Source: an uncultured Paracoccaceae bacterium (GTDB taxonomy: Bacteria > Pseudomonadota > Alphaproteobacteria > Rhodobacterales > Rhodobacteraceae). From it: a DNA stretch of 64,000 nucleotides. The notes below the pieces were generated by a model. It searched no databases and was not told where the DNA came from. It saw only the letters and a program-made list of their open reading frames with translations. Below are positions 911 through 55,872 of the stretch, piece after piece. How positions within the stretch are numbered: the stretch's first letter is position 1; every line of letters begins with the position of its first letter. A program made the position numbers and the translations under genes. The stretch lies in contig CANLND010000013.1 of NCBI GenBank assembly GCA_947492585.1, positions 1 to 64,000 of the forward strand, written 5' to 3'.

Positions 911-928
911 GGGCGGCTCCTGCCGCCC
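911..928 (-). terminator. GC-rich hairpin after the glycan operon
   Basis: Seven-base arms GGGCGGC and GCCGCCC around a 4-base loop sit exactly at the 3' end of the methyltransferase gene (stop 928-930). On the minus strand no T-run follows, so it is at best a weak or Rho-assisted terminator, or an RNA-stabilising hairpin. Confidence 0.3.
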
Positions 929-1404
929 TATATGTGATAAAAGTGATAGCGATCCTGCGGGATCCCGTCGGGGCCGTGCACAGATCTCAGGCCGTCCAAG
1001 GGCTGGCCTGAGATCACCAAGCCGCCGGGCTGCACGACCTGCGCAATGAGCGGCGATAGGCGTGCGGCTTCGGCAAGGTCTTTGCTTTTGTCACCAAATC
1101 CAAAATCGTAATGGGCTAAGGCGATACGACGTCCCTGTGCAGCCAGCTCCTGTAACATCGGCTCTGCTTCGCCGCATAGGAAATCTTCGTCGGGTGGCAC
1201 GCACGACGGATGGCATTGCAGAACGCGGTCGATGACCCAGACGCGGCGGTTAGGAAACAGTTCGCGCAGGTGATCATAGGTGCGCCCATTGCCAAGCCCC
1301 ATGTCCAGAATGTCTCCGGGCAGGTCGGCGATCTGATCACGACCCCAGTTCAATCCGTCGCGCTGGGCGGTAAAGCGGCGTAGCATGCTGTCGAGGCGGC
1401 TCAT
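928..1404 (-). CDS. Small class I SAM-dependent methyltransferase-like protein, last gene of glycan operon
   Basis: A 158-residue protein with a Rossmann-type glycine motif (LDMGLGNGRTY, residues 33-43) matching motif I of class I methyltransferases, then a compact C-terminal half containing GGLVISG. It is shorter than most stand-alone methyltransferases. The start was put at ATG 1404 because this ATG overlaps the stop of the upstream gene as ATGA, like every other junction of the operon; an upstream in-frame start at 1461 would overlap that gene by 61 bases. It is the last of seven co-oriented genes. The protein at 16508-17008 is a clear paralogue with the same LGNGRTY motif. A substrate is not evident; modification of the glycan made by the operon is an inference. 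Confidence 0.75.
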   Translation of the reverse strand: MSRLDSMLRRFTAQRDGLNWGRDQIADLPGDILDMGLGNGRTYDHLRELFPNRRVWVIDRVLQCHPSCVPPDEDFLCGEAEPMLQELAAQGRRIALAHYDFGFGDKSKDLAEAARLSPLIAQVVQPGGLVISGQPLDGLRSVHGPDGIPQDRYHFYHI

Positions 1405-2201
1405 GAAACGGTCCTTGCGTTCAATAATGTGGAGTTTGGTGCTGTGGTCGAAAATCGCCATGGCTTAGCGGGGCCTGCCAACAGGCGCTCAATCAGCTCT
1501 TCGGTAAAGTCCCAAATGGCGGGGTCGTGCACCAGATGGTGGGTCAGAATGCCATATGGTTCTGTAGCATCCGCGGCCCCGGCCCTGCGGTCCCCTAACT
1601 GACGGGTCAACTGGTCGATCAGGCCTTGGGGATCTGCCAGAGAGCGGCTGCCACGCCAGTCGATTACATCCAGATGGGTGTTGATCTGGTGCAGCCCCGG
1701 CGCGGCCCATTGGGTGTTGCGCGGTGTAAACGTGGAAACGGCACGGTAGCCAAGCGCTCCAAGGGCCGCAGTGACATCGGGGCCAATCCGGTTCCACGGC
1801 GGTACAAACATCGGTTGCAGGCGATCACCAAACAGTTCCGTCAGTCGCGCTAACCCGGCCTGTGCCTCATGCAGGGTGACCGAGGTGGGGCGGTGGTCGC
1901 CAAACTCGGCTTTTTTCTGATCGTATGGTGCATGGCTGTCATGGCTCCAACCGTGCACCACAGGCACAAAGGCCGTGTCCAGCGTGTCGGCAAGAGCGTT
2001 GGTGGCCAATTTTGGAATGACCGCCAGATGCACCGGCAGGCCAAACGTGTTGGAGAGGTTGGCCAGCTGGGTCAGGGCTTTGCTGGGCGCGGTGGCATCA
2101 TCATCGCGCCACCACAGGGGCAATACTCGCCCATCTTGGGCCCAGAGCGCGAGCTCCTGATCTAAGCTGTTCCATGAATATGTGCGTTGGCGCGAGCTCA
2201 T
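1401..2201 (-). CDS. Polysaccharide deacetylase-like protein, no signal peptide
   Basis: A 266-residue protein with NodB-type deacetylase landmarks: an acidic motif WWRDDD (about 30-35), a metal-binding HGWSHDSH motif (H83, H87, H90) and FVPPWNR (about 132-138), corresponding to motifs 1, 2 and 3 of carbohydrate esterase family 4. Such enzymes remove N- or O-acetyl groups from sugars using a divalent metal. Unlike most family members it has no signal peptide or membrane anchor, so it should act in the cytoplasm, presumably on a nucleotide- or lipid-linked precursor. It overlaps its upstream and downstream neighbours by ATGA. Sixth gene of the operon. Confidence 0.8.
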   Translation of the reverse strand: MSSRQRTYSWNSLDQELALWAQDGRVLPLWWRDDDATAPSKALTQLANLSNTFGLPVHLAVIPKLATNALADTLDTAFVPVVHGWSHDSHAPYDQKKAEFGDHRPTSVTLHEAQAGLARLTELFGDRLQPMFVPPWNRIGPDVTAALGALGYRAVSTFTPRNTQWAAPGLHQINTHLDVIDWRGSRSLADPQGLIDQLTRQLGDRRAGAADATEPYGILTHHLVHDPAIWDFTEELIERLLAGPAKPWRFSTTAPNSTLLNARTVS

Positions 2202-3343
2202 ACAGATCTCTTCTCGTTGCGGGCGATGTCACACGCTATTTTCACTGTTTGGGCGGCACCGTCAAATTGCGTCGTGTCAATTTCGCGTGCGGGTGCGCGG
2301 CGTACCTGCGTTAATGCCTTGGTCAGAGACAGGGCCGACAGATCAGCGCTGCGCAGGGTGGTAAAGCCGGGCAGATTTGAAAGAGCCTCACAACGCAGGG
2401 ATTGTTCGACCTCGTTGCCCGCATCAAACGGGACCAGAACCCCGGGCAGTCCTGTCTGCAGCAGGTCCATTGCTGTGTTATAGCCGCACATGCTGACCGA
2501 GGCCTCCGCATGGCGCAGCATCTGGCGAAAATCCGGGCGGGCACGTTCCACAATGGCGGGACTGCCCACAGATCTGTACTCTTGGATCCGCGCCGTTGCG
2601 TCACTGCCTCCGATGAGTAAGCGCCAGGTCAGATCTGGAGTGGCCTGCGCCGCAGAAAGAGCTGCACGATAAAGTGCGTCGCCCACGTTGCCGCCGCCCG
2701 CACTGACCAATATTTCACCGGATCCAGCCTTTTGTGGATGCAGGTTCGGTGCAGGAGGCGCGACAAAACCGGTATAGCGCAGCTTGGCCTGAAGTGCGGG
2801 GGATACCGGCCAGCTGAGGTTCAGCGCGGTGGTTTTGGGGTCGGAATGCACCAGCACCGCGTCGTAATATTGGTCAATGATCGCGTCGGCCTCGATCGCT
2901 TTCTTGGGCTTTGAGGGGGGCGCAAGAATATCGCGGATTGACGCGAGAATTACGGGAGGCTGGGGCAGGGCACGTGCGGTGGTCAGCGCGGCCAGAAACT
3001 CAGCTTTGAGACTGCGACGTCCAAAGGGGTAAAGTTCAGTGATCAGGATGTCAGGATTAAAATCGTGAACGTTTTTAACCAGTTGATCCTGTCGAGCTTG
3101 CAGGTATGCCGCATCGGAAACAGTGCCATCCTGCGCCAAAAGCCGGGTGAAATCGACACCATCTGACCGCAAGGCGGGCAGTTGAACAAAATCCAGATCT
3201 GCGGTGTTCAGCTGTTGCGCTGTGCCGCCCCCTGAGATCAGTTGCACCTGATGCTGCGCCGCTTGAAACGCGCGTGCCAACGTCAAGGCCCGTGACAGGT
3301 GCCCGGTGCCCAACAGGTGGGTGACGATGATTTGAACCTTCAT
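2198..3343 (-). CDS. MurG-like (GT28 fold) glycosyltransferase
   Basis: A 381-residue GT-B glycosyltransferase. The N-terminus has a glycine-rich GTGHLSRALTLARAF element typical of MurG/GT28-like proteins; the C-terminal half has the donor-binding region (SMCGYNTAMDLL, then LPGVLVPFDAGNEVEQ, about residues 285-310) with the GYNT motif of predicted glycosyltransferases related to COG4671. No transmembrane helix is seen. Transfers a sugar from a nucleotide donor to an unknown acceptor. It shares GHL and GYNT landmarks with the first gene of the operon (6253-7482), so the two are probably distant paralogues. ATGA overlaps on both sides. Confidence 0.8.
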   Translation of the reverse strand: MKVQIIVTHLLGTGHLSRALTLARAFQAAQHQVQLISGGGTAQQLNTADLDFVQLPALRSDGVDFTRLLAQDGTVSDAAYLQARQDQLVKNVHDFNPDILITELYPFGRRSLKAEFLAALTTARALPQPPVILASIRDILAPPSKPKKAIEADAIIDQYYDAVLVHSDPKTTALNLSWPVSPALQAKLRYTGFVAPPAPNLHPQKAGSGEILVSAGGGNVGDALYRAALSAAQATPDLTWRLLIGGSDATARIQEYRSVGSPAIVERARPDFRQMLRHAEASVSMCGYNTAMDLLQTGLPGVLVPFDAGNEVEQSLRCEALSNLPGFTTLRSADLSALSLTKALTQVRRAPAREIDTTQFDGAAQTVKIACDIARNEKRSV

Positions 3344-3927
3344 GGCTGGTCTCGTGCGATCAGGCGGACGGGGTCGGGCCAGGGTGTCATGGTGCTGTCG
3401 TCAAGTTCAACAACAAACAGGCGATTGCGTTTGATCCGAAACGGCGCCGGGCCTTCAAAGCTCCAGTTATACGCGCGGGCTAAGATCATGCGCATGATAC
3501 CAATGTGGCAGACCGCAACGGTGTCGGTGGTCAGGCTGTGCAACCACGGTGCAATGCGGGTCCACACCTCGGTTGGGGTTTCGCCGCGCGGTGGGCGATA
3601 GTGCCAGCCCCAGTCTTCGATCGGACGAAAACCGCTGTTTGGATCTGCGGCCAGATCGGTGCCATGTTTGCCTTCCCATGCCCCCCAGTTCATTTCGATC
3701 AGCGCGTCCGAAGTGCGCGGCGTTCGGCCGCTGACCAGCTGCGCCGTTTCACTGGCGCGCCTCAGGGGGCTGGACCACAGATCTGCCGTGTTCCATGGGG
3801 GGGGCAGGCGCAGGTCTGACAAATCGGCGCGGGCGGCGTCATCCAGTGGAATATCGCTGCGCCCCTGAATGCGACCCGCGCGGTTCCAGTCGGTGTGCCC
3901 ATGGCGCAGCACGGCAAGACGGATCAT
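3340..3927 (-). CDS. Histidine phosphatase family protein (phosphoglycerate mutase-like)
   Basis: A 195-residue protein of the histidine phosphatase superfamily: the phospho-acceptor motif LRHGHTDWN is at residues 7-15, a proton-donor region EMNWGAWEG lies mid-protein, and the second catalytic histidine is in AVCHIG near residue 150. Family members hydrolyse small phosphate esters such as sugar phosphates or alpha-ribazole phosphate. ATG 3927 was chosen because it puts RHG in the usual position close to the N-terminus and overlaps the upstream stop as ATGA; the longer frame to 3963 lies inside the upstream gene. Embedded between glycosyltransferases, it may remove phosphate from a sugar-phosphate or glycosyl-phosphate intermediate; that is inference. 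Confidence 0.85.
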   Translation of the reverse strand: MIRLAVLRHGHTDWNRAGRIQGRSDIPLDDAARADLSDLRLPPPWNTADLWSSPLRRASETAQLVSGRTPRTSDALIEMNWGAWEGKHGTDLAADPNSGFRPIEDWGWHYRPPRGETPTEVWTRIAPWLHSLTTDTVAVCHIGIMRMILARAYNWSFEGPAPFRIKRNRLFVVELDDSTMTPWPDPVRLIARDQP

Positions 3928-5018
3928 ATGTGGCCCTCCAGTTGTTGGTTCAACACGCGCCACAATTGGTGCGCCGCAGCTGGGGCAAGGTGATGCCTGG
4001 CGATATATTGCGCTGCTTTGGTGCCCCGGTCCTGCGCTGCGGCACGGTTGGAGGTCAAGTCTGCAATCGCCTGTGCCAGACCTGAACCGCCGTCTGCTAT
4101 CGCGGCCATGGTGGATTTGTTCTGGGGGGACAGCACATCACGCAGGCCGGGACGGTCCTGCGCCACAACGGGCATACCATGGGCTTGGGCTTCTAGATAT
4201 ACCATACCAAAGGCTTCCTTTACGCCGGGCCACAAAAACAAACTGGCGCGGGTATAGGCCTGCTCCAAGGTGGCTGCATCACATTGGCCCAGAAACTGAA
4301 CGCGTGCACCATAGCGTGCCATCAACGCCTCGACCTCGTGCCGCATCGGACCATCACCTGCGATGTCCAGCGACCAGTCGCCGGACAGATGCTGCAACGT
4401 GTCTGCGATCAGGGTGTATGAGGCCAGTTTATCTCCGGCGCGCATCATCCCAACTGACAGCATCGGCCCTGTTAGATCTGAGGTCTGCGGCAGGCTGTCG
4501 CGCGGCAGGAACGGCGCAAGTGGCGCCAAAGTCTGCCCCGTGGGTTTGTCCCGCAGCAGTGCCATATGATCCTGTTCTGTCAGATAAAAAATCACATCAG
4601 CCGCATCGGCTGCCGTATGGGCGGCACGTGCAAAGAGATCCCACCGACCATTCAGGCGTTTTTTGGCGCGGGTGCTTTCGATCTGGACATAGGGAATGCC
4701 ACGGGCCTGCGCGACCTTGGGGCCAATCAGATCGGGCGCCTTGTAGTAGCAGTGGTAGGTGACCCACAGATCGAGCGCAGGCAGATCTTGGATCAGCCGG
4801 TTGGCTTCGGCCTCTGCCTCGGCGATCAGGCGTTGCTGCGTGTCCGGATCTCCCGCCTTGTCGCGGCTGTTAAATTCACTGACAAGCTGGACGTCGGCGT
4901 CAGTTTGCAGCAGCTGTATCAGATTACGCGCCATTGCGCGGTCGCCTGACGGGACCGGATGATGCGGCGATTTCATCGGAGCGTAAAACCCGACGCATTT
5001 GCCGGACGCCCCGGTCAT
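3924..5018 (-). CDS. GT4-family glycosyltransferase
   Basis: A 364-residue GT-B glycosyltransferase. The second domain carries the GT4 donor-binding signature: ASLFLWPGVKEAFGMVYLEA (about 240-260) with the E-x7-E pattern, followed by AHGMPVVAQDRPG. The N-terminal domain starts with a small-residue-rich segment and PHHPVPSGDR, reminiscent of acceptor loops of GT4 enzymes. Soluble, with no membrane helix. Third gene of the operon; its ATG overlaps the stop of the previous gene and its own stop overlaps the next start (ATGA). Substrate unknown. Confidence 0.82.
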   Translation of the reverse strand: MTGASGKCVGFYAPMKSPHHPVPSGDRAMARNLIQLLQTDADVQLVSEFNSRDKAGDPDTQQRLIAEAEAEANRLIQDLPALDLWVTYHCYYKAPDLIGPKVAQARGIPYVQIESTRAKKRLNGRWDLFARAAHTAADAADVIFYLTEQDHMALLRDKPTGQTLAPLAPFLPRDSLPQTSDLTGPMLSVGMMRAGDKLASYTLIADTLQHLSGDWSLDIAGDGPMRHEVEALMARYGARVQFLGQCDAATLEQAYTRASLFLWPGVKEAFGMVYLEAQAHGMPVVAQDRPGLRDVLSPQNKSTMAAIADGGSGLAQAIADLTSNRAAAQDRGTKAAQYIARHHLAPAAAHQLWRVLNQQLEGHI

Positions 5019-6256
5019 GCGGGCGACATCATAGCGGTCAATCGGGATTTTAGCTGCGCTATTCCGGGGTCCATGCCAAAGTCCTGGCGCAGTCGCAGCA
5101 GGGCGGCCTCGGCCATTTCTGCGGCATGGGTGGGGTTTTGGGCCAGATAGACCAGCGCTTTGGCCAATAGGTTGGGGGCGTCTTCGCTCAGGAGCCCATG
5201 GGTGCCCGAGGTGATGAATTCGGGAATGGCCGAAACGGGCGTCGACAGGATCGGCAGGCGTTGTGAGGCGGCTTCCATCAGTACATTGGGCAGGCCGTCG
5301 CGGTCCCCGTCAGCTGCAATGCGGCTGGGCAGGACAAACAGATCACACGCCCGCATGGTTTCGATCACCTCAGGCTGATCACAAGGGCCGCGCCAGGTGA
5401 TGCGATCCATAATTCCGGCGTCTGCCGCACGGGCCTGCATTAGATCCGCAAGGCCCCCGCCGCCGATATGGGTGAAATGCCAATCCAGATCCTGCGGCAG
5501 CAAGGCCAGCGCATCGATGAGGCGGTCAAATCCCTTTTTCTCAACCAGACGCCCAACCGACATCAGGTGCAGGCGATCCCCAACCGCGCGCCAGGTGCGC
5601 TGCGGCGCTTCGGGGAAACGTGACAGGTCCAGCCCGTGATAGATCAAATCAACCGGGGTGCCTTGGGCCATGTCCTGAAGGTGTTTGGCGCCAAACCCGG
5701 TGCAGGTCGCGCCAAAAGCTGCGCCGTGGCTGGTGCTGGACAGTTTTTCCTGCAACTCCCAATCGGGCGAGGTCCAGATATCTTTGGCGTGGGCAGAAAA
5801 GCTCCACGGAAGCGCGCGCATGATCGCGGCATATCGCGCAACAGAGGAGGGCGTGTGCAGGAAATGTGCATAAAGGCCCAATACGGCGTCAGGCATTTCA
5901 GCGGCCAAAACGCAGGCCTGTCCAAAGCGGCGGATGCGGTTTTTGCTGGGATCACGGCGCAGATCCGCGCGCCACACACGATAAGCTTCGGCATAACCGG
6001 GCAAGGCCTGTGCCTGTGCGCGCGCCGCCCACACGCGCTCTGGCTCTTGATATAGGTATTCCGGCAAATACCGGACATTGGCCTGCAGTTGCAGATGCAG
6101 CGGATGGCGTTTTATGTCGGTGGGGTGACGCAGTGACCAGATTTCAAAATCGACATCAGCCTGCTCAAGCGCAACCAATTCCTGGGCGATAAAGGTCTCG
6201 GACAGGCGGGGCCAGCCTTTGACAAGAACCGCCAGAGGCGGAGGCGTAGTGGTCAT
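5015..6256 (-). CDS. GT4-family glycosyltransferase (colanic-acid-type)
   Basis: A 413-residue glycosyltransferase of the type found in colanic acid and other exopolysaccharide loci (WcaL/AmsK-like). The N-terminal KGWPRLSETFIAQEL motif (about 13-27) is typical of that subgroup and recurs in altered form (TYPQPSHSFIRREL) in the protein at 59841-61049. The donor site region contains VGRLVEKKGFDRLIDAL and LFVLPSRIAADGDRDGLPNV, with VLMEA following. Soluble. Second gene of the operon, tied by ATGA overlaps to both neighbours. Confidence 0.85.
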   Translation of the reverse strand: MTTTPPPLAVLVKGWPRLSETFIAQELVALEQADVDFEIWSLRHPTDIKRHPLHLQLQANVRYLPEYLYQEPERVWAARAQAQALPGYAEAYRVWRADLRRDPSKNRIRRFGQACVLAAEMPDAVLGLYAHFLHTPSSVARYAAIMRALPWSFSAHAKDIWTSPDWELQEKLSSTSHGAAFGATCTGFGAKHLQDMAQGTPVDLIYHGLDLSRFPEAPQRTWRAVGDRLHLMSVGRLVEKKGFDRLIDALALLPQDLDWHFTHIGGGGLADLMQARAADAGIMDRITWRGPCDQPEVIETMRACDLFVLPSRIAADGDRDGLPNVLMEAASQRLPILSTPVSAIPEFITSGTHGLLSEDAPNLLAKALVYLAQNPTHAAEMAEAALLRLRQDFGMDPGIAQLKSRLTAMMSPA

Positions 6257-7482
6257 TCTGCCGCCTTTGCAGTGGTGTCTTGCAATAGGGCTGAAACGCG
6301 CGTGGTTACGTAATCCAGACCGTCCAGCAGACCAACCGATATATCCGCCGCTGACGGCGGTTGTTGCCCGGCCAGTGCCTGGATCGCCCGTACCATCGAG
6401 GCGGGAGTGAGCCCGTCACGTTGTTCATCCAGCATGGTGATCAGGCCCAGTTCTTCGGCGCGGCTGGCACGGATCCATTGTTCCAGACGTGGGGTGGTCC
6501 GTGGGACGATCACGGCGGGTTTGTCAAAGGACAGGACTTCGCAAAACGTGTTATAGCCGCCCATGCAAACCACGCCCTGAGCACCCGCAAAGAGGGTCTC
6601 AATCTGGGACTCAAACCCTACAGCTGTGACGCGACCGTTGAGGCGGGCCACGCGGGTTTCGAATTCTTCTCGGGTTTCACCAGACAAGAACGGGCCATAC
6701 ACCAGAACGGCGCGGGGGGTCAGATCGGGCGCTTGTTCATAGGCTGATAACACCAAGTCCACCATCGCGGCGCCATCACCTCCACCGCCCGGAGTGATCA
6801 GCACATAAGGCTGCTCGGGGGGCGGATTAATTTCACCAAGATCGCGCCGCAGATAGCCGGTCCAATGCATCCGCGCCTGCGCTTGCGCGCTGAGCGCCAG
6901 ACCCTGGGTCGGATCATAGACCGAACGGGTGCCGTAAACCCATATTTCGTCATAGAATTTTTCAGTGGCACGCAGAGCGTCCTTGCGGTTCCATTCGGCG
7001 GCCAGCACTTCGGGCTCGTCCAGAACATCGCGCAGGCCGAGAATTAATTTGGCCTTGCCGCGGGTTTTGAGCCGATCCAGCGTTGGCATCAGTTCACCGC
7101 GAAATCCGTTGGGTTCCTTGTCAACGATGAGAACGTCGGGATCATAGCTTTCGGCGGTCGACAGGATCAGGTTTGCGCGCAAATCGGTGGTTTCGTCGAT
7201 GCCCATCCCAAGCGTGCGGGACGCATAAGAGCCATCCGCGCGTTTGATGACGCCGGGCAGGCGCAGATGGTCAACGCGGGTCGGAAAGGCAAATCGCCCT
7301 GCGACCGGCGATCCAGTCAATATCAACGCTGATGCATGTGGAGAGGCAGCCGTGATGGCTGCGGCAAGTGCTCGCGAACGGCGCAGATGACCAAGGCCAA
7401 AGGTGTCATGACTATAAAGCATCACACGCGGACCGCGCGTGATTTGGTCATCCGTTACGCTGAGAGTGTGTTCCGAGGTCAT
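6253..7482 (-). CDS. Predicted glycosyltransferase (COG4671/GT28-like), first gene of glycan operon
   Basis: A 409-residue GT-B protein. Near the N-terminus is MLYSHDTFGLGHLRRSRAL, the GHL motif of GT28-like proteins; the C-terminal domain has VLITPGGGGDGA, VGFESQIETL and VCMGGYNTFCEVLSF (GGYNT donor site) followed by KPAVIVPRTTPRLEQW. These features match predicted glycosyltransferases of COG4671. ATG 7482 is preferred over the frame opening at 7548 because a GGAGG motif lies about 8 bases upstream and the homologous region begins just after it. It heads the seven-gene minus-strand run. The role in the pathway is unknown; as first gene it may act on a soluble or lipid acceptor. Confidence 0.82.
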   Translation of the reverse strand: MTSEHTLSVTDDQITRGPRVMLYSHDTFGLGHLRRSRALAAAITAASPHASALILTGSPVAGRFAFPTRVDHLRLPGVIKRADGSYASRTLGMGIDETTDLRANLILSTAESYDPDVLIVDKEPNGFRGELMPTLDRLKTRGKAKLILGLRDVLDEPEVLAAEWNRKDALRATEKFYDEIWVYGTRSVYDPTQGLALSAQAQARMHWTGYLRRDLGEINPPPEQPYVLITPGGGGDGAAMVDLVLSAYEQAPDLTPRAVLVYGPFLSGETREEFETRVARLNGRVTAVGFESQIETLFAGAQGVVCMGGYNTFCEVLSFDKPAVIVPRTTPRLEQWIRASRAEELGLITMLDEQRDGLTPASMVRAIQALAGQQPPSAADISVGLLDGLDYVTTRVSALLQDTTAKAAE

Positions 7483-7884
7483 AACAGCGGGCCTCCGAGA
7501 GCAGAACCGACATAAAGGCCCAAACGTCCCCCGGCCCAGGGGGTGCAACGATCAAGGAGAGGTTGGACCAAAGTGTGCCCTCTGTTCTCGACCATCTTAC
7601 GCCTCAGTTCACGCAGCCCCAATTGTATGCAGGGTCTGTAATTTTCTGCTGTGCCCGCCTGTGCGGACGCTCAAGTCTCATTTGCAGGTATCCGAACAGT
7701 TTTTGGCCCGATCCGCAAGCTGCTACGGTCTTTGGTAACCGTTTTTCAGCTATATCTGCCCCGGTATTCACATGCAACGAAACAAAGGTCACATATGTTT
7801 GTCTGTTGTAATAGCGATTGGACTATGTACAGGCCCACGATACGATAGATGAAACTTAGGTCTGTTCCAGTAAAGGGGACCGGA
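7483..7884. other. Divergent intergenic region (402 bp) between glycan operon and MscS gene
   Basis: No convincing gene is seen. The right part holds the promoter for the channel gene, listed separately. The left part must hold the promoter of the seven-gene operon, but I could not pick a convincing minus-strand promoter. It contains a small C-rich/G-rich hairpin near 7530-7545. Confidence 0.6.
7818..7846 (+). promoter_or_regulatory. Sigma70-type promoter for mscS
   Basis: TTGGAC at 7818-7823 and TACGAT at 7841-7846 are separated by 17 bases, the optimal spacing of a housekeeping promoter. Transcription would start near 7853, downstream of the ATG at 7849, which supports the ATG at 7885 as the real start of the channel gene. 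Confidence 0.55.
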
Positions 7885-10209
7885 ATGACAAAGCTATTCC
7901 AGCTGTTCTTTAGCATTTTGTTGTGTGGTGTCCTGTCCAGTGAGGGGGCATTGGCCCAGACCTCGGACGTGGGGCAGACGCTGGCAGATGTCATTGCTGA
8001 GGCTGCGGAAAATGGCATCGGTGTTGTTGTTGTCGACAGCACGGGACAGCTTTTGACGACCGCCGATGAGACAGAGCCGGTTGAGACCGAAAACCCCATG
8101 GACAGCCCCTCGTCGCTGATGCGCGCACAGTCCGAAATGGATGAGTTTCGCGAAGAATTGAACAGCAGGCTGGAAGCGCTGCCGTATTCCATCTTTGAGG
8201 TGCGCTATATTTTGCAGCAAACCAGTCCAGATGGCACCACCGGCGCGTATTTGCGGGTGCTGGGCTGGAGCGTGTTGTTTCTGTTAATTGGGCGCTGGCT
8301 GTCGATTGAAATCTACGGAAAACGTATTGCCAAACGCCATGTCGTTGCGCGCATCAAAGCAAAACCCGAGGGCTACGCGGAAAAAGTGCCGTTTTTGGTT
8401 TTCCGCTTTTTCATGGGGGTTGGCGCCACCTTGTTTGCGATGGTGTTTGCCGGTGTAACCTCTCGACTGATTTTTGGTCCGGCCGAGGAAAGCTCCATTG
8501 CCTTTACGGTCACCGCGATATTTACGGCCTATTTCTTGGCCAGTACGGTTTCGGACCTGTGGCGTATGGTTCTGTCGCCGTATCTGAGCCAGTACCGGGT
8601 GCCAATCCTCGCGGATCGTGATGCCAAACGGCTGTATCTTTGGGCGTCATTTCTGGCAACCTACGACATCTGTGCGGTGTTGTTTGCCACATGGGTTGGC
8701 GATTTTGGCCTGAACTACAACGTTTACGCGTTGGTGTATGGGGCGACGGCTTTGGTCGGGACGGTGGGCAATCTGTTGATGATCCTTGTCAACGCCCGTG
8801 CAATTTCGGGTGCAATCCGCGCCGGACGTCGCAAAGAAGACTGCTCGTGGTTGATCCGCATTCTGGCCGTGGCCTGGGCCCCTGTGGTCATGGCCTATAT
8901 GGTGTTTGGCTGGTTTGAACTGGTGTTTGATCTGGTCTTTGAGCGGGATGTTTCGGTGCCGCTGATGGCGGGCACCTACCTGGTGTTGACCTCTATCCTT
9001 GTCGTCTATGGTGTGATCAATTATGTGATCGAGCGTTTCTTTGGTCGTCGCCGTGCGCTTCGCCTGTCGGTCGAAACTGAGATGTATCCAGACGCGGATG
9101 GCGCAATTGAGGGCGCCCCCGACGAGATGGCAGCGGCGCCGGTGGCGGTGCGACATCCGATTGCAACCTACGAAGATCTGGCCCGGCGAGTGGCGGGGAT
9201 TTTGGCCTTTGTGGTTGGGATTTTTGCGCTACTGTTCGTGTGGAACCCCGACGCCGAATGGATGGAGAGCCCGGTTGCGGAGCGGGCGATTGATGTCATT
9301 GTCATCTTGTTCATCGGCTACATCGTCTATCACTGGTTCCGGATCTGGATTGACAGCAAGATCGACGAAGAAACTGGCGATGTCCAAGAGGCAGAGCTGG
9401 GTGACGAAGGTGGCGCGGGTGGGGCGTCACGTCTGGCCACCTTGTTGCCGTTGTTCCGGGGCGCGATCCTGGCGGTGGTGATTGTTTCAATTGGGCTGAT
9501 TGCCCTGCTGGAAATGGGGATTAACGTCAGCCCGCTGTTTGCCGGTGCTGGTGTTGTGGGGCTTGCGGTGGGGTTTGGCTCGCAAACGCTTGTCCGCGAC
9601 ATTTTTTCGGGTGCGTTTTTCCTGGTTGATGATGCGTTTCGCAAAGGCGAGTACATCGACATTGGTGAGGTGAAAGGCACGGTTGAGAAAATCTCTGTCC
9701 GGTCTTTTCAGCTGCGTCACCATTTGGGCGCGCTGCACACCATTCCCTTTGGTGAGATTAAAGTGCTGACCAATTACTCGCGGGATTGGGTGATGATGAA
9801 ACTGCCCCTGCGGGTGACTTATGACACCGATGTTGAAAAGGTCCGTAAGCTGATCAAGGCGCTGGGCAAGGAATTGCTGAGCGATCCGGTGATTGGGGAC
9901 AATTTCATTCAGCCTCTGAAATCACAAGGTGTGATTGAGATGCAGGATTCAGCGATGATTATCCGGGTGAAATTCATGACCAAACCCGGAGATCAATGGC
10001 TGGTGCGTAAAAAGGTGTTTCAGGAGATCCGTGATCTTTTTGCGCGCGAGGGCATTAAATTTGCGCACCGCGAAGTCACAGTACGGCTGGCCTCGGATCA
10101 GGAAGAGAACCTGACACCAAAGCAAAAAGAGGCGGCAGTCGGGGCGGTTCAGGCGGCGATTGATGAGGACATGCTGGATGTACACGGTGAGGGGGGGGGC
10201 GGTGAATGA
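7885..10209 (+). CDS. Large MscS-family mechanosensitive channel
   Basis: A 774-residue inner-membrane channel. It begins with a signal peptide (MTKLFQLFFSILLCGVLSS, cleavage likely after ALA near residue 24), has a periplasmic stretch of about 100 residues, then roughly ten hydrophobic segments; the last, with VSPLFAGAGVVGLAVGFGSQ (about residues 545-565), is the Gly/Ala-packed pore helix of MscS, followed by the beta domain (VDDAFRKGEYIDIGEV, GTVEKISVRSF) and a cytosolic alpha/beta domain. It is far longer than E. coli MscS (286 residues), closer to the YbiO/YjeP class. The ATG at 7885 was chosen over 7849 because of the signal peptide, a GGGGACCGG ribosome site and the promoter position. 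It gates in response to hypo-osmotic shock. The C-terminus ends in a glycine run. Confidence 0.88.
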   Translation: MTKLFQLFFSILLCGVLSSEGALAQTSDVGQTLADVIAEAAENGIGVVVVDSTGQLLTTADETEPVETENPMDSPSSLMRAQSEMDEFREELNSRLEALPYSIFEVRYILQQTSPDGTTGAYLRVLGWSVLFLLIGRWLSIEIYGKRIAKRHVVARIKAKPEGYAEKVPFLVFRFFMGVGATLFAMVFAGVTSRLIFGPAEESSIAFTVTAIFTAYFLASTVSDLWRMVLSPYLSQYRVPILADRDAKRLYLWASFLATYDICAVLFATWVGDFGLNYNVYALVYGATALVGTVGNLLMILVNARAISGAIRAGRRKEDCSWLIRILAVAWAPVVMAYMVFGWFELVFDLVFERDVSVPLMAGTYLVLTSILVVYGVINYVIERFFGRRRALRLSVETEMYPDADGAIEGAPDEMAAAPVAVRHPIATYEDLARRVAGILAFVVGIFALLFVWNPDAEWMESPVAERAIDVIVILFIGYIVYHWFRIWIDSKIDEETGDVQEAELGDEGGAGGASRLATLLPLFRGAILAVVIVSIGLIALLEMGINVSPLFAGAGVVGLAVGFGSQTLVRDIFSGAFFLVDDAFRKGEYIDIGEVKGTVEKISVRSFQLRHHLGALHTIPFGEIKVLTNYSRDWVMMKLPLRVTYDTDVEKVRKLIKALGKELLSDPVIGDNFIQPLKSQGVIEMQDSAMIIRVKFMTKPGDQWLVRKKVFQEIRDLFAREGIKFAHREVTVRLASDQEENLTPKQKEAAVGAVQAAIDEDMLDVHGEGGGGE

Positions 10210-10285
10210 GGAATGTACTTGCTGCCAGATGTGCTCCCGCCGCCCGTCTGCACATCACGTTGTGATGTGGCGGGCGTTGGGCCGG

Positions 10286-10308
10286 GCAGCGCGCCTGCGG
10301 CGCGCTGC
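10286..10308. terminator. GC-rich perfect hairpin between converging genes
   Basis: Ten-base perfect arms GCAGCGCGCC and GGCGCGCTGC around a 3-base loop, placed between the ends of the channel gene and the ABC permease gene. No T-run follows on either strand, so classical intrinsic termination is uncertain. Confidence 0.4.
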
Positions 10309-10352
10309 GGCAGTGTATCCTCGCACGGGTGCGGACTGCGCGGGTTTGACGA

Positions 10353-11510
10353 TCAGTGCTGATAGGGATCGAGACTGTCGCGCAGCCCGTCGCCAAGAAA
10401 ATTGAAGGCCAGCACCACGACCACAATCGGCAGCATCGGGATGGCGGTCCACCAGTAGATTTCGATATTGGCCAGATTTTGGGCATCGTTCAGCATCACA
10501 CCCCAGCTGACAGCGGGCGCCCGCAGGCCCAGGCCAAGGAAGGACAAGGCCGTCTCACCCAGGATCATTGCCGGGATAGAGAGCGTGGCCGAGGCGATCA
10601 GGTGGCTCATGAAGTTGGGCAACAGATGTTTGCGGATCACACGCCCCGAAGATGCGCCCATCATTTCAGCCGCGCGCACGTATTCTTCTTCACGCAGGGA
10701 GAGGAACTTGGCGCGCACAGAGCGCGCCAGCCCCGGCCAATCTAACAGGCCGAGGATGATAGAGATGACAAAGAACACCGCCACAGGTGACCAATTTGAA
10801 GGGACCGCGGCGGACAAGGCCAGCCAGAGCGGGAGTTCTGGCAGCGACCGCAGCACTTCGATCACGCGGTTGATCACCCAGTCGATCGCACCGCCAAAAT
10901 AGCCCGCGACCGCACCAAAGAAGATGCCCAGGACAAAGGACACGGTGATGCCGATCAGCCCGACGGTGAGCGACAGCTGCGCACCATAGAGTATGCGGCT
11001 GAAGACATCGCGCCCCAATCGATCAGAGCCCCAGAGGAAGAATGGGATTTCGGTTTCTGGTGGGCAGAACAAATGGGTGTCGGCAGGGATCAGACCGGCC
11101 AATTTGTAGGGCGCCCCCTCGCAGAAGAAACGCAGTTTCTGGGGGTTTTCGAGGTCGGGGATGAATTCCCACTGGAACGTTTGCAGATTGGCTTCGGATG
11201 TCATCGGATAGATGAAAGGCCCCAGAAATTCGCCCTCGTGGAACAGTTTGATGTGTTGGGGGGGAGAATACAGATGTTCGCTGTTGCGATCGTTGGGGCC
11301 ATAGGGGGCCACAAAGCCGATGAACGGCAGGATCAGATAACAAAACAGCAAGAACGCGCCGGACACCAGCCCCAGCCGGTGGGTTTTGAACTTGCGCCAG
11401 ATCAGCACCCAGTTGGGGGCGTCGAGATCGGTGCGTTCAAGCTGTTGCAAGGCCGCGCTGGCGTCGTAAGGGGCCGTATCGACATAGCGGTCATCCGTGT
11501 GTTGGGTCAT
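10353..11510 (-). CDS. Peptide/opine-type ABC transporter permease (OppC/YejE-like)
   Basis: A 385-residue inner-membrane permease. After a cytosolic N-terminus and a first helix (GLVSGAFLLFCYLILPFIGF, about 48-67) comes a long periplasmic loop of about 100 residues, then five helices of the BPD_transp_1 fold. The EAA-type coupling loop is seen as EYVRAAEMMGASSGRVIRKH and the tail GDGLRDSLDP is typical of OppC/DppC proteins. It pairs with the permease encoded immediately upstream (ATGA overlap at 11507-11510). The long extra loop resembles YejE-type permeases. Substrate unknown; large peptides or oligosaccharide-like solutes are candidates. Confidence 0.88.
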   Translation of the reverse strand: MTQHTDDRYVDTAPYDASAALQQLERTDLDAPNWVLIWRKFKTHRLGLVSGAFLLFCYLILPFIGFVAPYGPNDRNSEHLYSPPQHIKLFHEGEFLGPFIYPMTSEANLQTFQWEFIPDLENPQKLRFFCEGAPYKLAGLIPADTHLFCPPETEIPFFLWGSDRLGRDVFSRILYGAQLSLTVGLIGITVSFVLGIFFGAVAGYFGGAIDWVINRVIEVLRSLPELPLWLALSAAVPSNWSPVAVFFVISIILGLLDWPGLARSVRAKFLSLREEEYVRAAEMMGASSGRVIRKHLLPNFMSHLIASATLSIPAMILGETALSFLGLGLRAPAVSWGVMLNDAQNLANIEIYWWTAIPMLPIVVVVLAFNFLGDGLRDSLDPYQH

Positions 11511-12535
11511 GATTTGCGCCCTTCATAGCGGATCCGGGGGTCCAGAAGGACCAAGAGGACATCAGATACCATTGTTCCGATCAACGTGAGCAGGGCGACA
11601 AACATCAAGACAAAAGCCGACAGGAACATATCTTGGGATTTCAGCGCCTGCAGCAGGTCTGGACCAATGGTTTGCAGGCCGAGCACTACCGATACCAGAA
11701 CTGACCCGGACACCATCGATGGCAGCAGGTTGCCGATGTCCGCAACAAAGGGATTGAATGCAACCCGCAACGGGTATTTGGTGAGCATCTTGCGCGGGGC
11801 CATGCCTTTGGCCACCGCAGTTTCGACGTAGGGCTTTTCCAGCTCATCCAGCATGTTGGCGCGCAGACGTTGCATCATCGCAGATGCGCCCGAGGTGCCG
11901 ATTACAAAGGTTGGTACGATCAGGTGCACCAGAATGGATTTCACCTTGTCCCAGCTCATTGGGGCGTTTTCATAGATCGGATCCATCAGCCCGCCAATGG
12001 GCAGGTCAAAATAGCGGTGCCCATAGTAAAACAGGATCAATGCCAGTAGAAAATTCGGCGTTGCCAATCCGAGGTAGCCCACAAAGGCGGAGGTGTAATC
12101 CACCCATGTGCGTGAACGTGCTGCCGCAAGAACGCCCAACGGCAGGGCCACCATGTAGACAAAGGCCACAGCGGCCAGATTGACCAGTACAGTCATCCAA
12201 AGGCTGTCACCGACAATTTCAGACACCGGCGCGTCAAATTCAAAGGACCAGCCAAAGTTGCCTTGGATCATGCCGGAAAACCCATGTGGGCCGGGCATAA
12301 AGCCCATCCAGATCATATATTGCTGCCACAAGGGGCGATCGAGCGCGTATTCACTGCGCAGAAATTCTGCCTTGGCGACACCTGCGGATTGTCCGGTGGC
12401 TTGCAATTCGGCGATCTGGTTCGACAGAAAATCACCGGGAGGCAGGTTGATGATGGCAAAGACCATCACCGACACCACCAACAAGGTGAGCAGCATGGTG
12501 CCGAAGCGATAGATTGCGTAACGCAGAATTTCCAT
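11507..12535 (-). CDS. Peptide/opine-type ABC transporter permease (OppB/YejB-like)
   Basis: A 342-residue permease with six predicted helices: the first (about 10-30, LLTLLVVSVMVFAIINLPPGD) ends in the PPGD motif usual for OppB/DppB proteins, and the coupling loop YVETAVAKGMAPRKMLTKY is at about 230-250. Forms the heterodimeric pore with the 10353-11510 product. Its start codon shares one base with the stop of the binding-protein gene (TGATG at 12533-12537), suggesting translational coupling. Confidence 0.9.
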   Translation of the reverse strand: MEILRYAIYRFGTMLLTLLVVSVMVFAIINLPPGDFLSNQIAELQATGQSAGVAKAEFLRSEYALDRPLWQQYMIWMGFMPGPHGFSGMIQGNFGWSFEFDAPVSEIVGDSLWMTVLVNLAAVAFVYMVALPLGVLAAARSRTWVDYTSAFVGYLGLATPNFLLALILFYYGHRYFDLPIGGLMDPIYENAPMSWDKVKSILVHLIVPTFVIGTSGASAMMQRLRANMLDELEKPYVETAVAKGMAPRKMLTKYPLRVAFNPFVADIGNLLPSMVSGSVLVSVVLGLQTIGPDLLQALKSQDMFLSAFVLMFVALLTLIGTMVSDVLLVLLDPRIRYEGRKS

Positions 12536-14457
12536 CAGCCTTTGCCACCTTCAAAGAAGAACTCGTCCATACGGTGGATGCCAAAATGCGCGCCGGGATC
12601 CCAGGTCCACATGCCTTTCTTTGGCACGTTGCGCAGGCGTTTGTTGACCACAACGGGCTGCGGCGCGTTGGCGACCAGTCCAATGGCATAAACCTGATCT
12701 GCGTGAATTTTCAGCATCTCGTGCCAGGCCTTGGCGCGCGCTTCGTCCGTTGTGGCACGTTCCCAGTCATGCATCAGTTCCATCAGACGCTTGGCCTCGG
12801 GCATATCAGGGGCTTCACCCACGTCACCGCCAGTTTGGTAATGCTGTCCCCATTTGGGCCAGGCGAGAAAAACCTGATCAGTTGGGGCCAGATAGGCGGG
12901 GGAGGTGTAGGTTTGTGGCAATCCGTTGTCCCATCCATACCAGACCGAGGCCATGGTGGTGCCGGAAAACACCCGGTTGCGCAGGATGTCACGATCCAAG
13001 GGGCGCATTACCATTTTAACGCCAATATCGTGCCAATCGTCCGAAATGATTTGCAGCGCGTTTTCCACCTCTTGCCGCTCACCGGCCGTTTCGACGACCA
13101 GTTCCATTTTGCGTCCGTCGGGCAAAATGCGGATACCATAGGCGTCACGCTGTGTCAGTCCGGCCTCGTCCAGCAACGCGTTGGCGCGTGCGATGTCTTG
13201 TTTGGCCCAGGCCGCGCGCATCTTTGCGTCAAAGAACGGGCTCTTTTCCAGCACGGTCATTGCGCCGGGTTTTGCCAGTTTGAAATAGAGCGCTTTGTTG
13301 ATGGCGCGGCGGTTGATTGCCAGCGACAGCGCACGGCGCACGCGCACATCGCGCAAAATCGGTTTCCAGACGGGATCGGCCACGTTCAGATTGGGATAGA
13401 TGGCGATTTGCGACGCGGCACCGCTGCCCCACAGCAGGGTTTTGTAATTGCCGCCATCCGCCTCGCCTTTGCGCAGGATCGGAATATCGCGAAAGCCCAA
13501 CCCACGGGCCTGAAGGTCGGCCTCACCGGCGTTGGACTTGGCGGCGATCAACCCGCCCGAGACAATTTCCATTTCGACGGTGTCGATATAGGGCAACTGC
13601 ACGCCCTTGCTGTCGATGCGGTGGTAAAAGGGATTGCGCACAAATTGGTGACGGATCTTTTTCCCCGAAGAGGCGTTCATCCACGGTTGCAACGTCGGCA
13701 ATTCGTGATTGTCGAACTTATACATATTGTCGCGTTTATTGTGCAGCGCGGCCCAGGATTTCACACGGGCATGGTTGACCTCGTCTTCGAGGTCTTCGGG
13801 GGGGGTATAAGTTGCGTGGAATTTTTTCAGATAAGCAGAGGGGCGGTAGATGAACGGGGGGCGCGCCTGGGCCAGAACTTGCAGGAATTGCGGGTTGGGA
13901 GAGGCCCATTCAAACACCACCGTGGTATCATCGGGAAAGGTGACCGACGGGAGTTTGCCATTCACGCGCAAAAAATCGGGGGGACCTGCGGGGCTCAGTT
14001 CGGGGTGGTTGGCAACATCGCTCCACCAATAGCGAAAATCTTCTGAAGTAAAGGGCGCACCGTTTGACCAATGGTGCCCGGGGCGCAGCCGCAACGTATA
14101 GCGCAGGTTGTTCTCGTTTTCCGCAGCAAGGAGCAAATCTGGTTTTAGGTTGTAGTTTTCATCATAGCCCATCAATCGGGCGTAGCCATAAACCACCATT
14201 TGCCGGATGTCTTTCGATCGGCTGACCATGGTGTTTAGGGTGCCGCCTTGTATCCCAAATTCGCGGCCCTTTGACGTAAGATCCACCACAAGGGGCGTAT
14301 CTGGCAACCGCTCTGAGATGGGCGGAAGGTGGCCTGCGTTGACTTCGGATCCCCAAAACGCGCCTTCTTGGGCCACAGGTGTGGCCGAGGCCATCAGCGG
14401 GGCGGAGAGGAGCGCCGCAGCAAGGGCAGCGGTTATCTTCTTGGGGATTTCAAACAT
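12535..14457 (-). CDS. Family 5 extracellular solute-binding protein
   Basis: A 640-residue periplasmic binding protein of the oligopeptide-binding (SBP_bac_5) family. Signal peptide MFEIPKKITAALAAALLSAP with cleavage near ASA (about residue 25). The family core is seen in YTLRLRPGHHWSNGAPFTSED (about 115-135) and VRVRRALSLAINRRAI (about 360-375). At 640 residues it is longer than DppA (about 535) and fits the YejA-like length class. It delivers solute to the adjacent permeases. The gene lies between ATPase and permease genes and overlaps the ATPase gene end by 8 bases, an unusual order since binding-protein genes usually come first. Confidence 0.9.
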   Translation of the reverse strand: MFEIPKKITAALAAALLSAPLMASATPVAQEGAFWGSEVNAGHLPPISERLPDTPLVVDLTSKGREFGIQGGTLNTMVSRSKDIRQMVVYGYARLMGYDENYNLKPDLLLAAENENNLRYTLRLRPGHHWSNGAPFTSEDFRYWWSDVANHPELSPAGPPDFLRVNGKLPSVTFPDDTTVVFEWASPNPQFLQVLAQARPPFIYRPSAYLKKFHATYTPPEDLEDEVNHARVKSWAALHNKRDNMYKFDNHELPTLQPWMNASSGKKIRHQFVRNPFYHRIDSKGVQLPYIDTVEMEIVSGGLIAAKSNAGEADLQARGLGFRDIPILRKGEADGGNYKTLLWGSGAASQIAIYPNLNVADPVWKPILRDVRVRRALSLAINRRAINKALYFKLAKPGAMTVLEKSPFFDAKMRAAWAKQDIARANALLDEAGLTQRDAYGIRILPDGRKMELVVETAGERQEVENALQIISDDWHDIGVKMVMRPLDRDILRNRVFSGTTMASVWYGWDNGLPQTYTSPAYLAPTDQVFLAWPKWGQHYQTGGDVGEAPDMPEAKRLMELMHDWERATTDEARAKAWHEMLKIHADQVYAIGLVANAPQPVVVNKRLRNVPKKGMWTWDPGAHFGIHRMDEFFFEGGKG

Positions 14458-16222
14458 GGCAACGTACCTTATGTCCGGGCTCCAGCTGGATGAGCGGGGG
14501 CGCCGTAGGGCCAGAAAAGCGGAACTGCTCCGGCCAATGCTCGGGGGAACCGGCCCCTTGGGCGACCAATTTCAGATCTATGGGGCGGTTGATGTCGGGT
14601 TCGGGCTGCGCAGCGATTAGCGCTTTGGTGTAGGGGTGGCGCGGATTGTAGAACAACGTTTCGGGGGGGGCCTGTTCGACCACCAGCCCGCGCCGCATCA
14701 CGGCGACTTCATCTGCGATGCGGGCGACCACGGCCAGATCGTGGCTGATAAAGAGATAGGACAGGTTTTTGCGATCTCTGATGTCTTCGAGCAGGGTTAG
14801 GATTTGTTCCTGAACCGAGACGTCCAAGGCCGAGGTGGGTTCGTCGCAGACCAAAAGACAGGGATCCAGCATCAATGCCCGTGCAATTGAGAGGCGTTGG
14901 CGCTGGCCACCAGAAAACGCATGCGGATAGCGTTTAAGCATATCCGGTCCCAATCCCACCATGCGCAACATATCTGCCGCGCGCTCGCGGCGTTCGGATG
15001 TGTTGCCAATTCCATGGATTTCCAGCGGTTCCGTTAGGGTGTCCTGAATACGCATACGGGGGCTGAGAGAGGAATAGGGGTCCTGGAATACCATTTGCGC
15101 GTTGCGCTGAAAGGCAAGCCGCGTAGGACGATCCATGGCGTGAACCTGCACGATGGGTGAGTTCGACGGTGGATAAAACGTCACCTCGCCACCGGGATCC
15201 GGACGTTCCGCCCCTAGGGCGATCCGGGCTGCCGTGGTTTTACCTGATCCGCTTTCGCCAACCACGGCCAAGGTTTTACCCCGCGGCAGGGTCAGATCTA
15301 CGCCTTGGCACGCCTGAATGGTGAGAGGGGAGGACCAGGCCTTTCCTGCACGCAGCGTATAGGTTTTGGCCACAGATTTCAGTTCAAGTATCGGATCGTC
15401 CCGTGGTGGAGGAAGTGCCACCACCGCCTGATCTGGTATTTCGGGCGCGGCCGCAAACAAGGCTTTGGTGTAGGGGTGCGCAGGCGCCGATAAAATCGGG
15501 GCTGCGGCTCCGGCCTCCATCACCCGGCCTTTGTGCATAACCACGACCTGTTCTGCCATATTGGCCACCACGCCCAGATCATGTGTCACAAGGATCATCG
15601 CCATGCCGGTTTCGCGTTGCAGATCTTTCATCAGGCCCAGCACCTGCGCCTGTGTGGTGACATCCAGCGCGGTTGTGGGTTCATCTGCGATCAGCAATTT
15701 TGGTTTTGCCACCATGGCCATGGCAATCATCGCGCGCTGGCGCATCCCGCCGGAAAGCTCAAACGGATAGGATTTATAGGTGCGTTCAGGGTCGGGAAAG
15801 CCGACGCGTTCAAAGCACTCCAGTACCTTTCGTTTGGCGGAGGTCTCTGATTTTCCGCCATGCAGCCACAGCACTTCGGACACCTGATTGCCGATCTTGT
15901 GCAGCGGAGACAGTGAGCGCATCGGCTCCTGAAAGATCATCGAAACAGAATTGCCGCGAATGTTGCGCATCTTGCGGTCGTTCAGCTGCGCCAGATCCAC
16001 AGGCCCCGTGCCCAGATCCAGATGCATTTGCCCGGAGGTGATTTGCGCGGCACGCGGCAAAATACGCAGAACCGCACGGCATGACAGGGTTTTTCCAGAT
16101 CCGCTTTCGCCGACCAGCGCCAAGGTTTCGCCGGGAGCGACCGCAAAATTCACGTTTTGCACGACGGGCGTTTGTCCTCCAAACGCAATGCTGAGGTTTT
16201 CAACTGAAAGGAGAGGCGCCAT
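14450..16222 (-). CDS. Dual-domain ABC transporter ATPase (YejF/GsiA-like)
   Basis: A 590-residue ATPase made of two full nucleotide-binding domains, the fused equivalent of OppD and OppF. Domain 1 has Walker A GESGSGKT (about 34-41), signature ELSGGMRQR and Walker B LLIADEPTTALD; domain 2 has GESGSGKT (about 315-322), FSGGQRQRLSIARAL and LLVCDEPTSALD. Each is followed by a HPYTKAL element that typifies the oligopeptide/dipeptide ATPase family. It powers the importer encoded downstream in the same operon, of which it is the first gene. Confidence 0.93.
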   Translation of the reverse strand: MAPLLSVENLSIAFGGQTPVVQNVNFAVAPGETLALVGESGSGKTLSCRAVLRILPRAAQITSGQMHLDLGTGPVDLAQLNDRKMRNIRGNSVSMIFQEPMRSLSPLHKIGNQVSEVLWLHGGKSETSAKRKVLECFERVGFPDPERTYKSYPFELSGGMRQRAMIAMAMVAKPKLLIADEPTTALDVTTQAQVLGLMKDLQRETGMAMILVTHDLGVVANMAEQVVVMHKGRVMEAGAAAPILSAPAHPYTKALFAAAPEIPDQAVVALPPPRDDPILELKSVAKTYTLRAGKAWSSPLTIQACQGVDLTLPRGKTLAVVGESGSGKTTAARIALGAERPDPGGEVTFYPPSNSPIVQVHAMDRPTRLAFQRNAQMVFQDPYSSLSPRMRIQDTLTEPLEIHGIGNTSERRERAADMLRMVGLGPDMLKRYPHAFSGGQRQRLSIARALMLDPCLLVCDEPTSALDVSVQEQILTLLEDIRDRKNLSYLFISHDLAVVARIADEVAVMRRGLVVEQAPPETLFYNPRHPYTKALIAAQPEPDINRPIDLKLVAQGAGSPEHWPEQFRFSGPTAPPLIQLEPGHKVRCHV

Positions 16223-16507
16223 TAACGTTCGTCGCAGTTCTGTCGAAGGGTCTTTGGATGCCCTTTTCGGTGACCTGTCATAATGATCCCATCAATCCCT
16301 ATTTCCCTTAACATCGCGTGACAAAGGGGGCTTCGTCAAACCCTTTGCGGGTTCTTTGGTCTTGGCCAACTTGGCTGTGTGGTGCACCTTGCGAGTGCGA
16401 GCGGACAATCGCAAAGAAAAAAGAACGGCATTTTTCAACACGTTTTCGTCATGCAGGGCGAAACACCCCCAGACTCTTGCTATATTTCACGCCATTGCAA
16501 AAGGATA
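16223..16507. other. Divergent intergenic region (285 bp)
   Basis: Separates the ABC importer operon from the plus-strand methyltransferase-like gene and so must hold both promoters. I did not find a convincing promoter pair or a palindromic operator here, and no small gene. Confidence 0.5.
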
Positions 16508-17008: not shown

Positions 17009-17113
17009 TTTTTCAGACAAATCTGGTGGCACGGTTGAATGCGGTAATAAACGCATCGTGGGATGTTGGGCTGCTTTGAGTGTAACGCGGTCAGATGCGC
17101 CACGCGCGTGTGG

Positions 17114-17506: not shown

Positions 17507-17670
17507 AGGGTAAGTCCTCGGTCAGGGGATGTATTCGGTTGAACCTTACGGATTTTTCGTGGGTAGGCCAATAGAACGTTGTGCCGACATATGTGACACA
17601 GTTTATAGACCAGCCCGCCATTGCCTGATCCGGACAATCCGGGGTAGGCACAACAGATATAGTTATTCAC

Positions 17671-55802: not shown

Positions 55803-55872
55803 CCTAGGCCATGGTGATATGGACCGCTGGTCCACGCGCCCGTGCGGTCTCTAAAACGATGGAGTGTTCGAC

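Follow-up and report, generated by a model that had tools for sequence, protein, structure and literature searches.

A seven-gene glycosyltransferase operon of Rhodobacterales is one module of a widely conserved gene set with an MsbA-like ABC protein and an Opp-type importer

The first 64,000 nucleotides of contig CANLND010000013.1 (assembly GCA_947492585.1, an uncultured Paracoccaceae bacterium), hereinafter the window, contain an operon of seven minus-strand genes, A to G (928–7482), gene A being the first at the 5' end and gene G the last one. A first-pass annotation of this DNA had described seven open reading frames (ORFs) joined by ATGA overlaps, and the ORFs, their order, and all six junctions (1401–1404, 2198–2201, 3340–3343, 3924–3927, 5015–5018, and 6253–6256) are confirmed in the sequence. 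It had also regarded the operon as a tightly coupled enzyme set of a single pathway making a soluble product without an exporter. A single pathway is likely, being supported by the conserved gene order and the overlaps. The operon itself proves to be a module within a larger gene set that is widely conserved; the finding is both real and more extensive than originally stated.

The operon comprises a GT28/MurG-like glycosyltransferase (gene A, 6253–7482), two GT4 glycosyltransferases (gene B, 5015–6256, and gene C, 3924–5018, both with PF13692/PF00534), a histidine phosphatase (gene D, 3340–3927, PF00300, His_Phos_1, 118.5 bits), a second GT28/MurG-like glycosyltransferase (gene E, 2198–3343), a predicted carbohydrate deacetylase of the CE4/NodB fold (gene F, 1401–2201), and a Methyltransf_17 methyltransferase dependent on S-adenosylmethionine (gene G, 928–1404, PF12692, 234 bits). 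The products of genes A and E both exceed the Pfam cut-off of 22 bits for the GT28 C-terminal domain PF04101, scoring 26.6 and 31.5 bits, respectively, and they are homologous to each other (27% identity, E 4e-19), which had been missed previously. The structure model of A (predicted local distance difference test score, pLDDT, 84.1) matches GT-B folds, including MurG (1nlm) and plant UDP-glycosyltransferases, and a single-sequence search of PDB with A yields UDP-glycosyltransferases as well (best E 7.7e-4); matches to TALE repeats in the same search were taken as chance. The best NCBIfam match of gene B is EpsE, well under the cut-off. The window protein D has the RHG motif and the second catalytic histidine that define branch 1 of the histidine phosphatases, and R8, H9, E78, and H141 belong to the residues that do not vary across 20 aligned rows; the glycine of the RHG motif does vary.

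The family labels assigned earlier agree with Pfam and NCBIfam for six out of seven genes; F matches nothing in either database, though its AlphaFold2 model (pLDDT 92.6) has CE4 esterases as well as chitin and peptidoglycan deacetylases as the best PDB matches. By its modeled fold, F is thus a predicted CE4/NodB-type deacetylase. Residues D34, D35, H83, H87, W136, H221, and H222 are invariant in 36 sequences, and according to this alignment D34/D35, H83, and H87 are the candidate Asp-His-His metal residues. PDB sequence searches with F, and with the profiles of A and F, gave no match. The predicted assignment of F to CE4 also bears on low-molecular-weight thiol and aminoglycoside pathways, which combine GT4 enzymes with a deacetylase of the PIG-L type, a fold unlike CE4; this candidate was rejected given the fold of F and the lack of a ligase among the genes of the set described below. 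As claimed initially, no membrane helix is suggested for any of the A–G proteins, the Kyte–Doolittle mean over 19 residues peaking at 1.42.

Four-base overlaps are not rare in this genome, as they are also seen, within the window, in five out of nine other hand-picked pairs of same-strand neighbors, and therefore they are not special per se. The overlaps of the operon stand out by their conservation across loci rather than by their mere presence: a 4-bp overlap is available at the D–E junction in 36 out of 37 loci, at C–D in 32 out of 37, at A–B in 31 out of 37, at E–F in 26 out of 34, at B–C in 24 out of 37, and at F–G in 14 out of 25. No Rfam family matched positions 1–24000; a promoter scan found three hits vs. 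a mean of 2.8, and a terminator scan, ten vs. 6.1.

Upstream of gene A and divergent from it, an MscS/YbiO-like mechanosensitive channel is encoded on the plus strand (7849–10209, PF00924, PF21082, PF21088). It is followed by four minus-strand genes of an Opp-type importer, namely, permease 2 (10353–11510, PF00528, PF12911), permease 1 (11507–12535, PF00528, PF19300), the substrate-binding protein (12535–14457, PF00496, 180 bits), and a fused double ATPase (14450–16222, PF00005 in two stretches) whose best NCBIfam match, below the cut-off, is YejF. The assignment to the Opp type relies on the family-5 binding protein, the two permeases, and the ATPase with the oligo_HPY domain. Then, on the plus strand, come a second Methyltransf_17 gene (16472–17008, PF12692, 205 bits), close to PDB 3iht (E 7e-77 across 161 residues), and an MsbA-like ATP-binding cassette (ABC) protein of 1009 residues with a C-terminal cyclic-nucleotide-binding domain (17671–20700, PF00664, PF00027). 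The importer and the ABC protein thus lie 3 to 13 kb from the operon. Since the Opp and ABC genes that adjoin the operon elsewhere (see below) also fill positions 10353–20700 of the window, the 14 consecutive genes at 928–20700 look like one system.

Judging by its ORFs, the right end of the window (approximately 54900–64000) is occupied by an ordinary-looking exopolysaccharide locus with a priming transferase, chain-length/tyrosine-kinase-like and flippase-like proteins, and GT4 and GT2 glycosyltransferases. The operon as a stray part of an exopolysaccharide locus was rejected, as the window's own such locus is about 47 kb away.

In order to see whether the gene order is conserved, we considered named loci containing A (the best 80 out of at least 589 confirmed stretches), restricting the neighbor counts to loci with enough flanking sequence (64 of the 80 downstream, 71 of the 80 upstream). 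Gene B adjoins A in all 80 loci; C, D, E, and F all lie downstream of A in 59 out of 64, and G does so too in 47 out of 64. The divergent MscS gene is upstream of A in 62 out of 71 loci, and in the Rhodobacterales regions obtained from the search of the order, it is found in 29 out of 29, with C–F following A in 26 out of 29. Hence, the seven genes are mostly together rather than scattered, the exceptions being locus L143, where A–C and D–E are separated by the MscS and Opp genes together with the second methyltransferase gene, and locus L101, where D–G are present and A–C are not within the fetched stretch. A CoA-transferase gene separates the Opp genes from MscS in Ruegeria sp. TM1040. Two records titled Nocardioides marinus and Oceanobacillus (L125, L185) contain loci of the Rhodobacterales type and are probably mislabeled. 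Two other loci have a copy of the F deacetylase gene directly after the Opp permeases (L164, 4823–5560, and L169, 4862–5587), and L164 has a second F copy behind E.

In other families, the operon is found next to the transporters. Most or all of it adjoins the Opp importer and the long MsbA-like ABC gene in loci L096, L097, L221, L223, L226, and L229–L231; Azospirillum (L175, L177, L178, L252) and a Rhodospirillum metagenome-assembled genome (L176) have A–F in one cluster with Opp and the ABC gene. In most of these loci, a cyclic-nucleotide-binding region is part of the ABC ORF or of the adjacent one, and a Methyltransf_17 gene is often present. The rhizobial clusters contain genes A and B, a gene resembling E, and the Opp and ABC genes; in Sinorhizobium meliloti and R. 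daejeonense, C and F are close by. Gene D was not found in the fetched rhizobial stretches. The rhizobial clusters carry a nucleotidyl-cyclase gene (by PF00211 in L254, by depositor naming in L255 and L257) and a cyclic-nucleotide-binding (Crp-like) gene, the cyclic-nucleotide-binding domain being encoded by a separate gene in Rhizobium leguminosarum. The cyclase gene is split over two frames in S. meliloti 1021 (L253, 5300–6645) and occupies one frame in strain Ak57. An MscS-type channel gene (43% identity, 269 residues) adjoins the S. meliloti cluster (L258, 14579–16699), and so the link to the channel may extend past Rhodobacterales.

Co-occurrence across 292 genomes of the order supports the same set. 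Gene A (E < 1e-100, a cut-off chosen once the gap from 2.5e-104 to 5.8e-74 was apparent) is present in 83 of the 292 genomes, which represent 27 of the 112 genera. This count leaves out 52 additional genomes whose matches are weaker, nine of them at 34–41% identity. The Opp binding protein (E <= 1e-80, four first-look candidates scored per genome) occurs in exactly the same 83 genomes and in no others, and the ABC protein (E <= 1e-60, two candidates) in 82 of the 83, with one additional genome matching partially. PF12692 is found in 74 genomes, every one of them A-positive. Within genera g46 and g52, the ABC protein and the binding protein are missing together with A from some genomes (G224, G250, and G068). 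The best-scoring ABC copy, i.e., the first-listed one in genomes many of which have two, is on a different contig or more than 60 kb away in 46 out of the 82 genomes, these 46 being spread across 17 genera, although draft contigs may hide linkage; hence, close linkage alone does not account for the co-occurrence. The adjacent DUF1045 gene served as a control: 79 of the 83 A-positive genomes have it, but so do 144 of the 209 A-negative ones. The DUF1045/phosphonate gene, adjacent in many loci, was for this reason rejected as a member of the system. In the window, this phosphonate-associated gene (DUF1045/TIGR03223, 58–786) is beside the operon, and in Ruegeria sp. TM1040 it has C–P lyase neighbors.

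Since a candidate exporter and an importer co-occur with A and adjoin the operon in other families, the earlier statement that there is no exporter is not supported, and neither is the suggestion of a soluble product; a soluble product made without export is unlikely. In the form proposed earlier, it would be a soluble cytosolic or nucleotide-linked glycan, for which the mycobacterial polymethylated polysaccharides offer a comparison. The A–G proteins indeed all look soluble, methyltransferases and a phosphatase accompany the glycosyltransferases, and the fold matches of A include the methylmannose-polysaccharide mannosyltransferase 7qsg; however, it ranks 49th, behind many unrelated GT-B enzymes, and together with the near-perfect co-occurrence with the transport proteins this makes such a glycan highly improbable. 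The binding protein being the strictest partner (83 of 83) could rather mean that uptake comes first, and the Opp system imports an external glycoside or peptidoglycan fragment, which the operon enzymes then modify in the cytosol in order to salvage or detoxify it. The Opp ATPase is closest to YejF, whose family also imports peptides and peptide conjugates. Yet four of the 14 genes in the set encode glycosyltransferases, none encodes a glycoside hydrolase, a sugar kinase, or a catabolic enzyme, and the MsbA-like partner points outward, so that we regard uptake as the primary function as quite improbable.

The transmembrane region of the ABC protein is MsbA-like (TIGR02203, 120.7 bits, E 6e-35; chvA, 44.4 bits; both below the cut-offs), whereas its nucleotide-binding part is degenerate: PF00005 is under the cut-off, and canonical Walker A or Walker B motifs are absent, according to the pattern search, in 15 out of 15 sequences. 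In the alignment of eleven sequences, L097 and L229 retain the Walker A lysine, albeit without the following Ser/Thr, and a long insertion is seen between the Walker A region and the signature region. As intact Walker A and B motifs are a defining feature of an active MsbA-type exporter, we do not classify the protein as such. Compared to the export of lipid-linked or cyclic glycans by MsbA, PglK, or ChvA, the MsbA-like transmembrane region and the glycosyltransferases in the same cluster are shared, while the lack of canonical Walker motifs, the insertion, and the cyclic-nucleotide-binding domain fused to the ABC protein or encoded beside it are points of difference.

A looser, sister type of cluster with the order A–B–GT4–ABC–APH (L086–L094, L224, L225, and L256; approximately 33–41% identity in A) is informative in this respect. 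The ABC proteins of this type that were checked (L086, L087, L091, L224, L225, and L256) have Walker A in six out of six cases and Walker B in five out of six. Thus, homologous A and B genes again share one gene row with an MsbA-family exporter, here with intact Walker A, which ties the A–B pair to export once more. The sister clusters differ by APH-type kinases (L086, L225, L256) and by having no Opp ATPase at 43% identity or higher within the scanned stretches. A heparinase-II/III-like protein is encoded in the sister locus L224, and several sister loci have a response-regulator/sensor-like pair upstream.

Relatives also provide hints about the product. The F relatives of two loci of another class are fused, within a single ORF, to a glycosyltransferase of the GlcNAc type (PF11397) and to a methyltransferase domain (L218, 9294–11714; L220, 3039–5516). 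These fusions repeat the enzyme types of the operon, and thus an N-acetylhexosamine substrate, and an amino-sugar glycan in general, are favored. The dehydrogenases near the cluster (L095, L221, L254, L257) score higher with UDP-N-acetylhexosamine (UDP-HexNAc) models than with UDP-glucose models, all below the equivalog cut-offs, and the nucleotide-sugar dehydrogenase of a sister cluster on an E. coli plasmid is UDP-glucose-like. This genome has a homolog of the cluster dehydrogenase on another contig (37% identity).

The same genes could be read as belonging to a secreted uronic- or aminouronic-acid polysaccharide, i.e., exopolysaccharide or capsule, which the ABC protein or another exporter secretes, a lyase trims, and the Opp system imports as fragments. 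The S. meliloti and R. daejeonense clusters combine the UDP-HexNAc-closer dehydrogenase with a PF14099 polysaccharide lyase, the E. coli plasmid cluster has a PF13372 alginate-export-like protein along with its dehydrogenase, and a TviB-like dehydrogenase adjoins A in L095. However, polymerase, chain-length, and outer-membrane export genes are not among the 14 genes, the PF14099 family was not found in this genome, and the window has its separate exopolysaccharide locus at approximately 54.9–64 kb; hence, this alternative is possible but rather unlikely.

Narrow literature searches found no description of the cluster's product. The nodP2–smb21248 locus of S. meliloti has been associated with a putative sulfated polysaccharide whose structure is unknown, according to PMC5498481, and the gene order suggests that the S. 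meliloti cluster lies just beyond it. In this species, the cluster thus appears to border a predicted polysaccharide locus, one that is itself of undefined product. In PMC12542648, SMb21250 (glycosyltransferase) and SMb21257 (truncated adenylate cyclase) show changed levels, and exoF3 (SMb21245) is near 813.5 kb; we infer that the cluster extends from about SMb21251 onward, with these two genes beside or in it. The tags smb20804/smb20805, guessed from position, were rejected as representing a known phenotype of the cluster, since PMC5539429 lists them as capsule genes. The cluster is not treated in the consulted passages of PMC6180224, PMC10945364, PMC2701930, PMC4961836, and PMC6843515.

Taking all this into account, we tentatively propose, with somewhat less than even confidence, that the operon provides the cytosolic enzymes for glycan assembly within a dedicated system, whose N-acetylhexosamine-containing, deacetylated, and methylated product is moved by the ABC protein and reclaimed by the Opp importer. 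The two GT28-like and two GT4 enzymes would add sugars successively at the inner face of the inner membrane, most likely to a lipid, as MurG and many GT4 enzymes act on lipid acceptors. F would deacetylate an N-acetylhexosamine, the product may be methylated by one of the two Methyltransf_17 enzymes or by both, and phosphatase D could dephosphorylate a donor, an intermediate, or a by-product. Once complete, the glycan would be passed to the MsbA-like protein, presumably gated by the cyclic-nucleotide-binding domain, while the Opp-type importer would return the glycan or its fragments to the cell. The sugar product therefore probably crosses the inner membrane via the exporter-like protein and the importer of the set itself.

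In this general sense, the set works like ABC-dependent glycan assembly. The closest parallel in logic is the assembly of Nod factors, with the NodB deacetylase, the NodS methyltransferase, and export by the NodIJ ABC transporter: in both cases, glycosyltransferase activity is combined with a NodB-fold deacetylase, a methyltransferase, and an ABC transporter. In contrast, a NodC-type chitin synthase and a NodA acyltransferase are not among the 14 genes, F belongs to no Pfam family, G is a PF12692 protein, and there are four GT-B-type enzymes. The importer has the same composition as YejABEF and Opp systems (family-5 binding protein, two permeases, fused ATPase), but its binding-protein lineage was detected, at E <= 1e-80, in no genomes of the order other than the A-positive ones. 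Finally, none of the genes expected in Wzx/Wzy- or ABC-dependent surface polysaccharide loci, i.e., a priming transferase, flippase/polymerase, KpsMT pair, or export genes, is among the 14.

Several observations weigh against the proposed assembly and transport system. The ABC protein lacks the catalytic motifs and thus may not be an ATP-driven pump. PF12692 is absent from nine of the 83 A-positive genomes, and no Pfam family matches the methyltransferase at the corresponding place of the S. meliloti cluster. The dehydrogenase, the lyase, and the sister-type alginate-export-like protein of the relatives are as compatible with a secreted polymer as with a glycolipid. The phylum sample includes ten regions that contain A and enough sequence downstream of it; in these, D follows A five times and F eight times. 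Moreover, F exists outside the cluster: among 20 fetched F regions (chosen from 34 F-positive genomes, both F copies of one genome included), eight have no A at 43.5% identity or higher; the other 12 contain A at this level, 11 of them with the Opp ATPase and ten with the ABC protein inside the fetched stretch. The 292 genomes share ancestry and do not constitute 292 independent tests, so that nominal Fisher p values overstate the significance. Lastly, the substrate of every part is a prediction, and the lipid acceptor is suggested by the mode of action of related glycosyltransferases.

A more specific possibility, which we consider unlikely, is a circuit controlled by cyclic nucleotides, in which the MsbA-family protein, acting as a pseudo-ATPase that has a cyclic-nucleotide sensor but lacks a functional nucleotide-binding site, moves or holds the modified amino-sugar glycan produced by the soluble, translationally coupled enzymes, and in which this glycan is either sensed or taken back by a matched Opp importer. 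To our knowledge, no glycan transporter and feedback loop of this kind have been described, and such a circuit, if true, would represent a new type of both. If the proposed system is correct, 83 out of 292 sampled genomes of the order, as well as Rhizobium, Sinorhizobium, and Azospirillum records, carry an unrecognized envelope-glycan system with its own importer, and its ABC protein would be well suited for finding out whether a protein with an exporter-type fold can function without hydrolyzing ATP.

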